Assembly: GCA_916988195.3 (NCBI GenBank) | Contig: CAKASQ030000012.1 | Span: 1-64,000, forward strand | From: Oscillospiraceae bacterium | GTDB taxonomy: Bacteria > Bacillota > Clostridia > Oscillospirales > Oscillospiraceae | Length of the DNA stretch: 64,000 nucleotides | Direction of reading: 5' to 3' | Shown: positions 52,756 through 58,059 of the stretch, in pieces | How positions within the stretch are numbered: the stretch's first letter is position 1 | Layout: each line of letters starts with the position of its first letter | The notes under the pieces: generated by a model | Seen by the model: only the letters and a program-made list of their open reading frames with translations | Databases searched by the model: none | Told to the model about the DNA's origin: nothing | Made by a program: the position numbers and the translations under genes

Positions 52756-54165
52756 TCAGAACCGGCCCTCAGCCTCGCTGCGCCAGAGTGCTGTTACTTT
52801 CAGGCTTTCTTCCACGCGGGTGTTTTCGTCAATGACCGTGCCGTCCTCTGCGACCCAGCCGAAGAACTCGTCGTCATCGCAGTGTGCCTCAAACATCGGG
52901 TCATAATAGCTTCCCGTCTCGTAGACCGCCACGTCGACCTCCAGCGACCCCTTTTCCGTCTGGAAAATCACATAGCTGAAGCCGTCGGAATTTTTCGCGT
53001 TGTAATCGCCGTAGAAAAACAGCTTGAGCTCGCGCAGGCGGCGCTCAATGAGTCCGTCATAAATTTCCGTACCGGACTTTGTCGTCACGTGGCACCAGAT
53101 GCCGAACGCGGAGGCAAATTCATTGGTGGTGTATCTGCCGGAAATCAGAAGATTTGCAAGCCGGCTCGGGTTCTTCTCGCTCATCCAGTAGTCACCGTTG
53201 TTGTATGTAAAGGAGATGAGCGCGTCGTATTCGTTCGTTGATAACCGGATGTTGTTTTTATCGAGGAACGCATCCAGCTTCTTTTCAAACCCCTGCAGCC
53301 GCTTGCGAAGCAGATGGTCCGCCTGCTTTTCGGTGATGCCGTCGGGGTACTCGTCCTTCTCGCAGTAGCTGCCGTAGCCGATGGAATACTGCTGATAGTC
53401 CCAATAGGCCATCGCCGTAAATCCCTCGCGCGCCTTGATGAACTCGACGCCGTCGTCCGTCGTGCGAAGCTCGATGGGCGTGTCGTCGTCTAAGTCCCCG
53501 GGGTCGTCCCCACTATCGGTGCTGTCGCCGGTCTGGTCGATCCGGAAAGCGTAGATTCGGCTGACGATGGTCGACAGCTCCGCGCGGGTCAGGAAGCCCT
53601 CCGGGCGGAACGTGCCGTCCGGATAGCCGCCGATGATGCCGATCTCGCTCAGTGCGTGGGCAAAATCGTCGTTTGTATCGGTAAATTTCTGCGTCAGGTC
53701 CTGCCGCGTTGCACCGAGCGCGCGCGCCGTGACCTTTGCGGTGAGAATGCGGCTCATATTGATATCGAGGTCAGTGATCTCGCCTCGCTCGAGCATTCCG
53801 GCCTCCAGGGCAAAGTTGAGATAGCCTCTCGCCCAGTGGCTGGCGGCCTGCTCGGGTTCTGCGTAGCCCGCGGCCAGAATGATCATCTTGAGCGCCTGAC
53901 CGGTCGTGACCTTGTCCTCCGGGCGGAACGTGCCGTCCGGGAAGCCGCCGATGATGCCGTTCCGGTAGAGGTACATCACATCGTCGTAGTACCAGCTCCC
54001 CGGCGCAACGTCTGGAAATACCGTTTCCAGCTGCTCTTCCTCCCAGAAATATTCCTGCTGCTCCGCGTCGTACCAATTCTCCTCATCGGCCGCGCAGACT
54101 GCTGCAGACAAGGCGGCAAGCAGCATAATGCTCAGGACAAGACGAAGGACCCATCGCTTCGACAT
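52756..54165 (-). CDS. S-layer-homology surface muramidase with InlB-like C-terminus
   Basis: The 469-residue protein has a signal peptide (cleaved near VCAA), two clear SLH repeats (FPDVAPGSWYYDDVMYLYRN, GIIGGFPDGTFRPEDKVTTG; GIIGGYPDGTFRPEGFLTRA) with a degenerate one between them, a linker, a phage-type GH24 lysozyme domain (FIKAREGFTAMAYWDYQQYS, SIGYGS, YDALISFTYN) with its catalytic Glu in AREGF, and a C-terminal InlB-type strand unit (FFGWVAEDGTVIDENTRVEE). It should bind cell-wall polymers through SLH and cut peptidoglycan, probably in wall remodelling. Confidence 0.9.
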   Translation of the reverse strand: MSKRWVLRLVLSIMLLAALSAAVCAADEENWYDAEQQEYFWEEEQLETVFPDVAPGSWYYDDVMYLYRNGIIGGFPDGTFRPEDKVTTGQALKMIILAAGYAEPEQAASHWARGYLNFALEAGMLERGEITDLDINMSRILTAKVTARALGATRQDLTQKFTDTNDDFAHALSEIGIIGGYPDGTFRPEGFLTRAELSTIVSRIYAFRIDQTGDSTDSGDDPGDLDDDTPIELRTTDDGVEFIKAREGFTAMAYWDYQQYSIGYGSYCEKDEYPDGITEKQADHLLRKRLQGFEKKLDAFLDKNNIRLSTNEYDALISFTYNNGDYWMSEKNPSRLANLLISGRYTTNEFASAFGIWCHVTTKSGTEIYDGLIERRLRELKLFFYGDYNAKNSDGFSYVIFQTEKGSLEVDVAVYETGSYYDPMFEAHCDDDEFFGWVAEDGTVIDENTRVEESLKVTALWRSEAEGRF

Positions 54166-54288: not shown

Positions 54289-55200
54289 TCAGAGTCTCTG
54301 CTCCATCCATGAGAGAATGTCCGCGTAGACCTCCGTCCGGTTGGTCTCGTTGAGCATCTCGTGCCGTCCCTCGGGATAGAGGCGGATGGTGACGTTTTTG
54401 AGCCCCGCGCGCTTGAACGCGTCGATGCAGCGAAGGACGCCCTCTCCCATCGCGCCGACGGGATCCTGCATGCCGGAGACAAAGAGCACAGGAAGCGCTT
54501 TGTCCATCTTCTCAAGGTTCTCTTTCCGTTGGTTCATCGAGATCCCCGTCAGCATGTCGCGCGTGAGACCGACCGTCGCGTCAAAGCCGCAGAGCTCATC
54601 CGCCGTGTACGCGTCGACGACCGCTTCCTTCGAGCAGATCCAGTCGTTCGCCGTCCGGTTGGGCTTGAACTTTTTATTGTACGCGCCGAACATCAGCTCC
54701 TTCAAAAGCCCGCTGCACCCGGTCTCGCCCACGCGCAGCTGCTCGAGCTTGCAGAGCGCAAGTCCTGCCTTGAGCGCCATTTCGGGCTGCCAGCCGGTGC
54801 CGGAAATGATCGCGCCCGCGAGTTCTCCGGGATAGGTATACAGATACGTGCGCAGCAGGAACGAGCCCATGCTGTGCCCCAGCATGAGATACGGAAGGCC
54901 CGGATAGCGGCGCTTCATCTCTTCAAAGAGCGTCCGCTCGTCTTTGACCGCCGCCATCCAGCCGCCATGAAAATACCCATACGTGCCGCCTTCCTCCACA
55001 GAAAGGCCATGCCCCATGTGATCGTCCGCACAGACGACAAAGCCGCGTTCGGTCAGAAAATTTGCGAAATGGTCGTAGCGTCCGATATGCTCGGCAATAC
55101 CGTGGATGATCTGCACCACCGCGCGCGGCGCAGTCTCCGGCGTCCAGAGCGCGCAGTGGATGCGGCCCGCGCCGTTCGAGGGAAGATAGAATTCCTCCAT
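54289..55200 (-). CDS. Alpha/beta hydrolase, lysophospholipase/monoacylglycerol-lipase type
   Basis: The 303-residue protein has the oxyanion segment VVQIIHGIAEHIGRYDHFA, nucleophile motif LMLGHSMGSF, an acidic residue in VLFVSGMQDPVG and the catalytic His in YPEGRHEMLNE. This is the HsIP (serine aminopeptidase S33-like) lysophospholipase family. No signal peptide is seen, so it is cytoplasmic. Confidence 0.92.
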   Translation of the reverse strand: MEEFYLPSNGAGRIHCALWTPETAPRAVVQIIHGIAEHIGRYDHFANFLTERGFVVCADDHMGHGLSVEEGGTYGYFHGGWMAAVKDERTLFEEMKRRYPGLPYLMLGHSMGSFLLRTYLYTYPGELAGAIISGTGWQPEMALKAGLALCKLEQLRVGETGCSGLLKELMFGAYNKKFKPNRTANDWICSKEAVVDAYTADELCGFDATVGLTRDMLTGISMNQRKENLEKMDKALPVLFVSGMQDPVGAMGEGVLRCIDAFKRAGLKNVTIRLYPEGRHEMLNETNRTEVYADILSWMEQRL

Positions 55201-55490: not shown

Positions 55491-56732
55491 CTATTCCACA
55501 TCGAAGCTTGCCATCAATTCGTCCATCGTTTGCCGCTTTCGGATGCAGCGCACCGCGCCGTTTTCAATCAAAAACTCCGCGCAGCCGAGGCTTCCGCCGT
55601 AATTACTTCCAAAGCTCCGCCCGTCCGCGCCGGTATCCAGAATCGCGACGCACTCGCCGAGCTTCAACTCCGGCAGAACGAAGCTCCCGGAAAAATGGTC
55701 ACGCAGATCAGACATTGCCCCCGCTACGTGCACCAGCTGCTTTCCCCGGCTCTCCGGCGCAAGCGGCGCGATGAGCCTATGGCTCGCTCCGAAGGCGATC
55801 TCCCGTAAAAGCTGCGCGCAGTCTGCGTCTAAAATGACAAGCGGCGTTTGCTGCCGTTTGACGGCGAGCACCCGTGAAACAAGCACGCCCGCCTTCGCCG
55901 CCATCAGCCGCCCTTCGGCTAAAATCAGCTTCGGCGTTACTCCCGCGGGCACCAGAATCATCTCATAGCTTCTTCGCACACGCTTGGAGACCGCCGTCAG
56001 ATCCGGCGCATTGTCCGACGGACGGTAGCCCACGCCAAGTCCGCCCGAAATCAAAATACTGTCCACCGCAAGATCGAGCTCCCGCTTGATCCGGACTGCC
56101 AGATGGAACAGCATTTCCTGCACTGCAAAAAAGCGCAGCGGCTCGAACTCCTGATCGCGCAGGAATGCCGCAAGGCCGATGGACTCCACACCGCTCGCCT
56201 GGAACCGGCGGCACATGGAGACCGTCTCATCCGCGTTCATGCCGAGCTTGCTCTTTTCAAAGTCCCAGACGGTCCGCCCATCCATTTGCAGGCTCCCGCC
56301 GGGGTTGACGCTGAGAAGAACATGCTCCGGCGGAACGGACGGCAGCGCGTGCGGCGCGTCAATGAGATACGCCGCCCCAATTCTCCGGGCATAAGCGCCT
56401 GCGTGAGCATCCTCCGCCATGGGCGCGTAGATCATTTGCGCCCCGTCAATGTCCGCATAGCGCGAAAGCCGGAGCTCTGCCTCGCTTCCGCAGAGGATCT
56501 GACAGCCCGCGTCCGCCAGCACGCGCAGAATCGCCGGGTTCGGGTTCATCCTCACCGGAAAGCAGAGCTCAAAGCCGTCGTTCCACGAAAACGCCAGCCG
56601 AAGGTCCATACACGCCTTGTGAAAGCTTTCCGCGTCGTAGAGATAAAACGGCGTCGGCTGCTCCTGCAATAGCTTTTTCAGGAGCCTCGCGGGCGGAAGG
56701 CCGTCCGGATTTTTGTCCTTTTTCGCTGTCAT
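55491..56732 (-). CDS. LysA/ornithine-decarboxylase-fold protein lacking catalytic residues
   Basis: The 413-residue protein aligns along its length with diaminopimelate decarboxylases (TPFYLYDAESF; NPNPAILRVLADAGC; GGLGVGYRPSDNAPD; SNYGGSLGCAEFLIENG). But the PLP lysine position (usually YAVKAN) reads FPVRMN, the HIGS motif is missing (GLAAFLRDQEFEPL), the EPGR site reads AEGR, and the CESGD active-site loop reads AMSDLRD. It is therefore probably a pseudoenzyme. It overlaps coaX by four bases, suggesting coupling. Confidence 0.85.
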   Translation of the reverse strand: MTAKKDKNPDGLPPARLLKKLLQEQPTPFYLYDAESFHKACMDLRLAFSWNDGFELCFPVRMNPNPAILRVLADAGCQILCGSEAELRLSRYADIDGAQMIYAPMAEDAHAGAYARRIGAAYLIDAPHALPSVPPEHVLLSVNPGGSLQMDGRTVWDFEKSKLGMNADETVSMCRRFQASGVESIGLAAFLRDQEFEPLRFFAVQEMLFHLAVRIKRELDLAVDSILISGGLGVGYRPSDNAPDLTAVSKRVRRSYEMILVPAGVTPKLILAEGRLMAAKAGVLVSRVLAVKRQQTPLVILDADCAQLLREIAFGASHRLIAPLAPESRGKQLVHVAGAMSDLRDHFSGSFVLPELKLGECVAILDTGADGRSFGSNYGGSLGCAEFLIENGAVRCIRKRQTMDELMASFDVE

Positions 56733-57496
56733 CTCTTGTTCTTCTCATAGAGGATCCGCAGGCCCTTTAAAAGAAGGTCCCGGTCATAGTGAATCTGCGT
56801 CCGGCACATCGGAAGCACGAAACGCGAAATGCCGCCGGTTGCAATGACGGTTGCCTTCATGCCGAGCTCCTCTTCCATGCGCGTGACCATGCCGTCGATC
56901 ATGCATGCCGCGCCGAGCATAATGCCGCTTTGCATGCACTCGGTCGTGTTGCGGCCGATGGCGTGCTTCGGCGCCTCCAGGCTGATACCGGGAAGCTGCG
57001 AGGTTCTGGTGGTCAGCACCTCGGACGAAACCTTTACGCCCGGGCAGATGCTACCGCCGAGGAGCGTTCCTGACGCGTCGACAGCCATCATCGTCGTCGC
57101 CGTTCCCATATCAATGATGATCAGCGGCGCCGGGTAGTCCCGCAGCGCAGCCACCGCCGCAACAACAAGGTCGCTTCCGACCTGTCCGGGGTTTCCGCCC
57201 GCGATGTTGAGCCCCGTCTTGAGCCCCGGGCCGACTACCATGGGCGTTCTTCCGGTGAGCTTCATAACTGCCGTCCGCAGCGAGTTCAGAACCGGCGGCA
57301 CGACGGACGAGATGATCACGCCCTCAATTTCCTCCGCCCGCAGATCGTAGAGCGCGAGCACACCCTTGAGATCCATCCAGTACTGGTCGGATGTTTTGAC
57401 AAGATCGGTCGCCAGCCGCAGCTCGTGGAGGATTTTCTCCCCCTCGACGCAGCCGATGACAATATTCGTATTGCCGATGTCGATCGCTAACAGCAT
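56729..57496 (-). CDS. coaX: Type III pantothenate kinase
   Basis: The 255-residue protein starts LLAIDIGNTNIVIGCVEGE (ASKHA-fold phosphate loop), and has VISSVVPPVLNSLR, GSDLVVAAVAALRDYPAP, IIDMGTATTMMAVD and an ATGGISRFVLPMC segment, all as in CoaX. It phosphorylates pantothenate, the first step of coenzyme A synthesis, and is insensitive to CoA feedback. It overlaps the LysA-like gene and follows the phosphoesterase gene. Confidence 0.94.
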   Translation of the reverse strand: MLLAIDIGNTNIVIGCVEGEKILHELRLATDLVKTSDQYWMDLKGVLALYDLRAEEIEGVIISSVVPPVLNSLRTAVMKLTGRTPMVVGPGLKTGLNIAGGNPGQVGSDLVVAAVAALRDYPAPLIIIDMGTATTMMAVDASGTLLGGSICPGVKVSSEVLTTRTSQLPGISLEAPKHAIGRNTTECMQSGIMLGAACMIDGMVTRMEEELGMKATVIATGGISRFVLPMCRTQIHYDRDLLLKGLRILYEKNKR

Positions 57497-57532: not shown

Positions 57533-57994
57533 TTATTCCGGCAGCTCCTTGAGCTCACACGTAAACGTCCCGTCCGTTATCTCGATCACGCCGTAGCGCC
57601 CGCTTCTTGCCGCGCCGGGGTTCATGTACCATACACCGCTGTCCTGTTCCAGAAACGGCCGGTGCGTGTGGCCAAAAAGCGCGATATCTGCGCCCGCGCG
57701 GTCCGCCTCGAGCTTGAGGCGGGACATGCCCGATTTCACGCCGAACAGGTGCCCGTGCGTGAGGAACAGGCGCACGCCGCCGAGCTCCGTTAAAATCGTC
57801 TCGGGAGCCTGCGCGCCAAAGTCGCAGTTTCCCCTAACCATATAAAAATCAATCAGATCGAGCGCGTAGGAAAGCTCCTCCGCGTCCGAGACGTGGTCTC
57901 CCAGATGCAGAATCACATCCGGGTCTTCCAGTATCGCCGCGTCATACATCGCACCGATCGCGCGGTGCGAATCGGAAAGCACAAGAATTTTCAA
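57533..57994 (-). CDS. YfcE-family metallophosphoesterase
   Basis: The protein has the phosphoesterase motifs LVLSDSHRAIGAM, VILHLGDHVSD, MVRGNCDFGAQ, FLTHGHLFGVK and ALFGHTHRPF (metal-binding Asp, His and Asn). The TTG at 57994 (LKILVLSDSHR) is my choice because AGGTGA lies eight bases upstream; an in-frame ATG at 58012 has a site only two bases away. Family members hydrolyse phosphodiesters; the substrate is unknown. It is first in an operon with coaX. Confidence 0.9.
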   Translation of the reverse strand: MKILVLSDSHRAIGAMYDAAILEDPDVILHLGDHVSDAEELSYALDLIDFYMVRGNCDFGAQAPETILTELGGVRLFLTHGHLFGVKSGMSRLKLEADRAGADIALFGHTHRPFLEQDSGVWYMNPGAARSGRYGVIEITDGTFTCELKELPE

Positions 57995-58059
57995 AATCGG
58001 TTCACCTATCATAGCCTCCCTGCATACAATACACAAGAACTTCTTTCAGGAGGCGGAAT

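Follow-up and report, generated by a model that had tools for sequence, protein, structure and literature searches.

The open reading frame at 55491..56732 on the minus strand of the window, the 64,000-nucleotide stretch of DNA analysed here, encodes a 413-residue protein with the fold of the LysA2 branch of PLP-dependent decarboxylases and without their catalytic residues, according to the ORF call, Pfam and NCBIfam profiles, relatives of solved structure and a phylogenetic tree. We consider it fairly probable, if by no means certain, that this protein, termed pseudo-LysA in the following, is a dead pseudoenzyme derived from LysA2, probably dimeric and non-catalytic, with a binding or regulatory role.

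All 413 codons are open, and the frame contains neither a stop nor a frameshift that would mark a pseudogene. Its ATG lies four bases within the end of coaX, and the full-length overlapping frame described in a preceding sequence-only reading was thus confirmed. Pfam recognizes both the barrel (PF02784; 50.8 bits, 2e-13, cut-off 23.4) and the C-terminal sheet domain (PF00278; 43.9 bits, 3e-11, cut-off 23), and the best relatives with solved structures are diaminopimelate decarboxylases (e.g., 2p3e, 3.7e-28, residues 18–407). Against the lysA model TIGR01048 the protein scores 170.5 bits, below the cut-off of 297.9, and five further members of its clade reach 75–184 bits.

The catalytic positions were identified by alignment, using their roles in ornithine and diaminopimelate decarboxylases. 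Position 61, that of the Schiff-base lysine for PLP, is an arginine (codon AGG, 56550..56552, minus strand). At position 272, where a glutamate pairs with the pyridine nitrogen in the decarboxylases, there is an alanine, and the EPGR motif reads AEGR. The cysteine of CESGD, which in those enzymes reaches across the dimer, is replaced by Ser341. The window protein does retain Arg275, Tyr378 and the glycine loop on the phosphate side. With lysine, glutamate and cysteine lost, pseudo-LysA would be unable to catalyse the PLP-dependent reaction that its relatives perform. The only other LysA-fold member of the genome is encoded on contig 58; it is a canonical LysA, and its motifs are intact (YASKA, HVGSQ, EPGR, CCESGD). 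The sequence-only reading had held that the absence of a proper lysA would argue for an active protein; with such a gene present, this test favours inactivity.

In searches covering 400 genomes of the bacterial family to which the window belongs, three kinds of LysA could be distinguished: canonical LysA1, the LysA2 branch and the pseudo-LysA family. The LysA2 proteins, characterized by the motifs FAVKATPTP, HAFLASN, ELGR and CENND, keep lysine, glutamate and cysteine and have neither HIGS nor the proline of EPGR. They share with pseudo-LysA the two-domain fold, a common origin, the glycine loop, Arg275, the interface charges discussed below and about 33% identity; they differ in retaining Lys61, Glu272 and Cys341, and none of the loci read has a LysA2 gene behind coaX. 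This comparison also sorts the landmarks that the sequence-only reading had listed as replaced. The replacement of the Schiff-base lysine by arginine and the loss of the cysteine were borne out by the alignments. The HIGS motif (AAFLRDQ in the window protein) and the EPGR proline are likewise replaced, but neither substitution signals inactivity; because lysine-bearing LysA2 proteins also lack both, only the losses of lysine, glutamate and cysteine count in this respect. Outside the pseudo-LysA locus the lysine was present in all sampled LysA1 (22/22) and LysA2 (36/36) sequences and in the four fusion proteins described below (4/4, after removal of L013, a misfiled pseudo-LysA member). Of the other low-scoring LysA-like genes considered as members, three truly belong to the pseudo-LysA family, and the remainder are different kinds of decarboxylase that keep the lysine.

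Pseudo-LysA is found in at least 19 genomes from about a dozen genera of the family (G000, G001, G002, G018, G069, G113, G116, G120, G130, G155, G157, G176, G185, G194, G209, G212, G257, G296 and G328) at the same site between yfcE, coaX and a hydrolase gene; this count is a lower bound, since the score does not tell the weakest-scoring members apart from LysA2. A LysA2 or canonical LysA protein that retains the lysine occurs in 14 of the 16 carrier genomes searched, and its absence from the other two (G002 and G176) says little, as most genomes are incomplete assemblies. The active type differs between carriers, being LysA1 in some, LysA2 in others and both in the genus g68. Among 15 non-redundant members of the pseudo-LysA clade, the cysteine is lost in all, the Schiff-base lysine in 14 and Glu272 in 12. 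The lysine is replaced differently from lineage to lineage, most often by R, followed by W, M, H, S, F, C and A. The exception, encoded behind coaX at L061:6401-7663 (G155), keeps the lysine, HxH and the glutamate and has serine for the cysteine; to judge from these residues, PLP binding may persist in this protein, which could represent an intermediate. A single broken copy was seen, at L067:5970-7241 (G018), which contains a TAG stop. The loss of PLP catalysis with preservation of the fold, as claimed from the sequence of the window gene, is thus well supported and common to the whole clade.

In the phylogenetic tree, all pseudo-LysA sequences form one clade (UFBoot/SH-aLRT 100/97), whose sister group consists of lysine-keeping fusions of DUF5662 and LysA (98/94), with LysA2 outside. 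On account of the long branches, individual members were also placed separately, and the window protein (97/99), L064 (98/99) and L251 (88/71) again joined the fusions, as did L061 in a quick tree (96); the common origin is therefore not just a product of long-branch attraction. Together with the shared site, these placements support a single origin of the family. The differing replacements and the lysine of L061 imply that the lysine was lost more than once, or once with a reversal, two histories between which a tree with such long branches does not choose. The fusions proper (L075, L076 and L077, in G139, G049 and G200, all of genus g48) are ORFs of 601–606 residues that combine DUF5662 (PF18907) with a lysine-keeping LysA2-type decarboxylase. 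With the unfused L074 they form the clade nearest to pseudo-LysA, with the motif FPVKATP or FAVKATP, and three of these four share P59, a mark of the pseudo-LysA family. Unlike pseudo-LysA, they keep the lysine and lie in other gene surroundings, and three of the group carry the N-terminal DUF5662.

In the window, pseudo-LysA is preceded by yfcE, coding for a YfcE-like calcineurin-type phosphoesterase and the first gene of the conserved set (57533..58036, minus strand; PF12850, 5e-28), and by its upstream operon partner coaX, coding for type III pantothenate kinase (56729..57496, minus strand; PF03309, 5e-62). It is followed by a gene for an alpha/beta hydrolase of the Hydrolase_4 type (54289..55200, minus strand; PF12146, 1.8e-47). 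Further along, at window positions 52756-54165, a protein with two S-layer homology stretches (PF00395) and a phage-type lysozyme domain (PF00959) is encoded, which is conserved near the locus in several relatives. A search with PADLOC found no defence role for the window locus. The order yfcE, coaX, pseudo-LysA recurs with distances of −35 to +45 bases between coaX and the gene in 14 loci, and yfcE lies upstream in 15 of the 16 loci with a readable region, as well as in L249, L251 and L252. YfcE is a more constant neighbour than CoaX, which directly precedes pseudo-LysA in 14 of 19 genomes. In three species of g68 the gene begins about 12–15 bases after yfcE, and a coaX with about 60% identity to that of the window is located elsewhere in the genome; here coaX has gone from the yfcE locus and the pseudoenzyme has stayed (G069, G212 and G296). 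In three of four related g68 genomes, all CoaX types found were more distant (about 42%). In G018, too, coaX lies elsewhere; in G185 it was not found, which means little for an assembly that is 81% complete. Conversely, pseudo-LysA is cleanly absent from this fixed site in several relatives: in G273, G362, G078 and L115, coaX is followed by the alpha/beta hydrolase directly or after a short gap. Among 80 named CoaX loci obtained by scanning contigs with CoaX, not one contained pseudo-LysA. As each of the two genes occurs in some genomes without the other next to it, their coupling is one of operon neighbourhood and not of an obligate pair. Of the suggested link to CoA supply, the position after coaX in most carriers stands, but the g68 arrangement leaves the link weak.

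Divergence within the family is high, with a median identity of 26% among pseudo-LysA proteins compared to 69% among LysA2, which evolves ten times more slowly. This might indicate that a disused LysA2 copy behind coaX is slowly drifting to loss and owes its fold to leftover similarity. Such a relic would be in keeping with the very long branches, the scattered distribution with relatives that cleanly lack the gene, the stop in the G018 copy and the dN of 0.78 between the two measurable species of the window's genus, where dS is saturated (about 1.85). Indeed, fast evolution, repeated absence from an intact site and the TAG codon of G018 indicate that the gene is dispensable. However, dN/dS of pseudo-LysA among the three g68 species (G212, G069, G296) is only 0.036–0.043, compared to 0.031–0.046 for LysA2, 0.055–0.116 for LysA1, 0.018–0.045 for CoaX and 0.021–0.041 for YfcE. 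The g68 protein is held as tightly as a live enzyme and, with catalytic residues lost, frame intact and purifying selection, is a selected pseudoenzyme; the selection part of this definition comes from g68. In the window's genus, the frames are open and full length in all three species or their readable parts despite a dS of about 1.8. With some 390 codons, about 0.9 substitutions per site and lineage, and 4–5% of random changes producing a stop, a neutral copy should by this rough estimate have acquired some tens of stops, which speaks against neutral drift; selection on the window's own copy is suggested by these intact frames. Decay also fits poorly with the retention of structure-bearing residues while catalytic ones were lost. 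A relic is therefore possible for the window copy, not for g68, and as a general explanation we rate it as unlikely.

The pattern of retention points to conservation of the fold and of the dimer interface. Of the 142 columns invariant in LysA2, those with glycine or proline are kept in 29 of 38 cases and the others in 45 of 104 (Fisher p 6e-4). The median retention of the 66 polar invariants in the clade is 30%. On the basis of motifs and their spacing, four charged residues of the window protein (K162, D345, D125 and K292) are assigned to positions that form salt bridges across the dimer in ornithine decarboxylase, K162 corresponding to Lys169. These charges are retained in 73–87% of the members, a figure for which no formal probability is claimed, as the four positions were chosen after K162 had been noticed. 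In ornithine decarboxylase the salt bridges are Lys169-Asp364 and Asp134-Lys294 (PMC3543441). Judged from its interface charges, pseudo-LysA is likely to be a dimer, as fold type III PLP decarboxylases are in head-to-tail arrangement; mouse antizyme inhibitor, however, has the same four salt-bridge residues, yet is a monomer (PMC3543441).

A retained interface could also serve mixed dimers with active LysA, through which pseudo-LysA would tune the formation of lysine or diaminopimelate. In trypanosomatids, AdoMetDC and DHS are activated by catalytically dead paralogues (PMC5201418, PMC3663545), and the fold, the interface charges and the occurrence of an active LysA in almost every carrier would suit such a partner. 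Nevertheless, we find this explanation unlikely: the cross-subunit cysteine is missing from every member, so that a mixed dimer would damage the site of the active subunit, the differing LysA types of the carriers leave no fixed partner, and pseudo-LysA never adjoins lysA in the loci read. The protein might also have remained an enzyme with altered chemistry, using PLP without the Schiff-base lysine or performing a PLP-free reaction in the old barrel, as the glycine loop, Arg275 and Tyr378 of the window protein and the lysine, histidine and glutamate of L061 might indicate. This appears distinctly improbable, because the lysine position varies freely and the clade shares no newly conserved group of polar residues, such as one shared active site would require. 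In the alignment, the only columns conserved in the clade and not in LysA2 are P59, L140 and L187; residues unique to the group, which the sequence-only reading had proposed to look for, are limited to these three; no conserved pocket or surface specific to the clade was found, nor any sign of a new shared active site. Finally, an ordinary diaminopimelate decarboxylase that obtains its lysine from another position is hardly credible, although diaminopimelate decarboxylases are the nearest relatives by sequence. The lysA score is far below the cut-off, lysine, glutamate and cysteine are all lost, and a proper lysA is present elsewhere in the genome. Another pocket lysine, which would have contradicted the claimed loss of catalysis, is not conserved across the clade, the sole conserved lysine being K162, the presumed dimer-interface residue.

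We therefore prefer to see in pseudo-LysA a selected, non-catalytic binding protein. A copy of a LysA2-type diaminopimelate decarboxylase would have been placed once behind coaX in an ancestor within the family, where it kept its two-domain fold and, judged by charge conservation, its dimer interface, and lost the residues required for PLP chemistry. The protein would be made together with YfcE and CoaX, and the dimer may bind a small ligand or another protein and in this way regulate another activity, in the manner of antizyme inhibitor. The latter, too, is a catalytically dead homologue within this fold class; it no longer binds PLP and acts by binding protein (PMC3170320, PMC3543441), an example of this fold type being used for protein binding without catalysis (PMC3170320). 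It differs in being eukaryotic, derived from ornithine decarboxylase and acting through antizyme, which it binds in place of the decarboxylase, and the likeness is proposed in mode only. Bacteria of the kind that carry pseudo-LysA are not known to have an antizyme. By this analogy, a binding or regulatory role of pseudo-LysA may reasonably be proposed. A more specific version, in which the dead, translationally coupled dimer acts as a metabolite sensor or binds YfcE or CoaX, so regulating CoA formation or another function of the operon, with a pocket retuned in each lineage, is rather doubtful. PLPBP/YggS is also a non-catalytic protein with a fold type III barrel (PMC9605639, PMC6522883), but it has a single domain and binds PLP, whereas the window protein has two domains and no PLP lysine and does not belong to that family.

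In eukaryotes, antizyme inhibitor is a known case of a dead PLP-decarboxylase homologue (PMC3170320, PMC3543441), and no report of a bacterial clade of such proteins was found in the open-access papers searched. With its many independent lysine losses, a lysine-keeping sister group and one lysine-keeping member, the pseudo-LysA clade offers a natural series from enzyme to binding protein. For genome annotation it provides a warning, as these genes would receive the name lysA by homology, though their carriers have another lysA. For the biology of the family, a dead descendant of LysA beside a CoA gene, kept under strong selection in one group of species, suggests that some gut-type bacteria use this protein for binding instead of catalysis.
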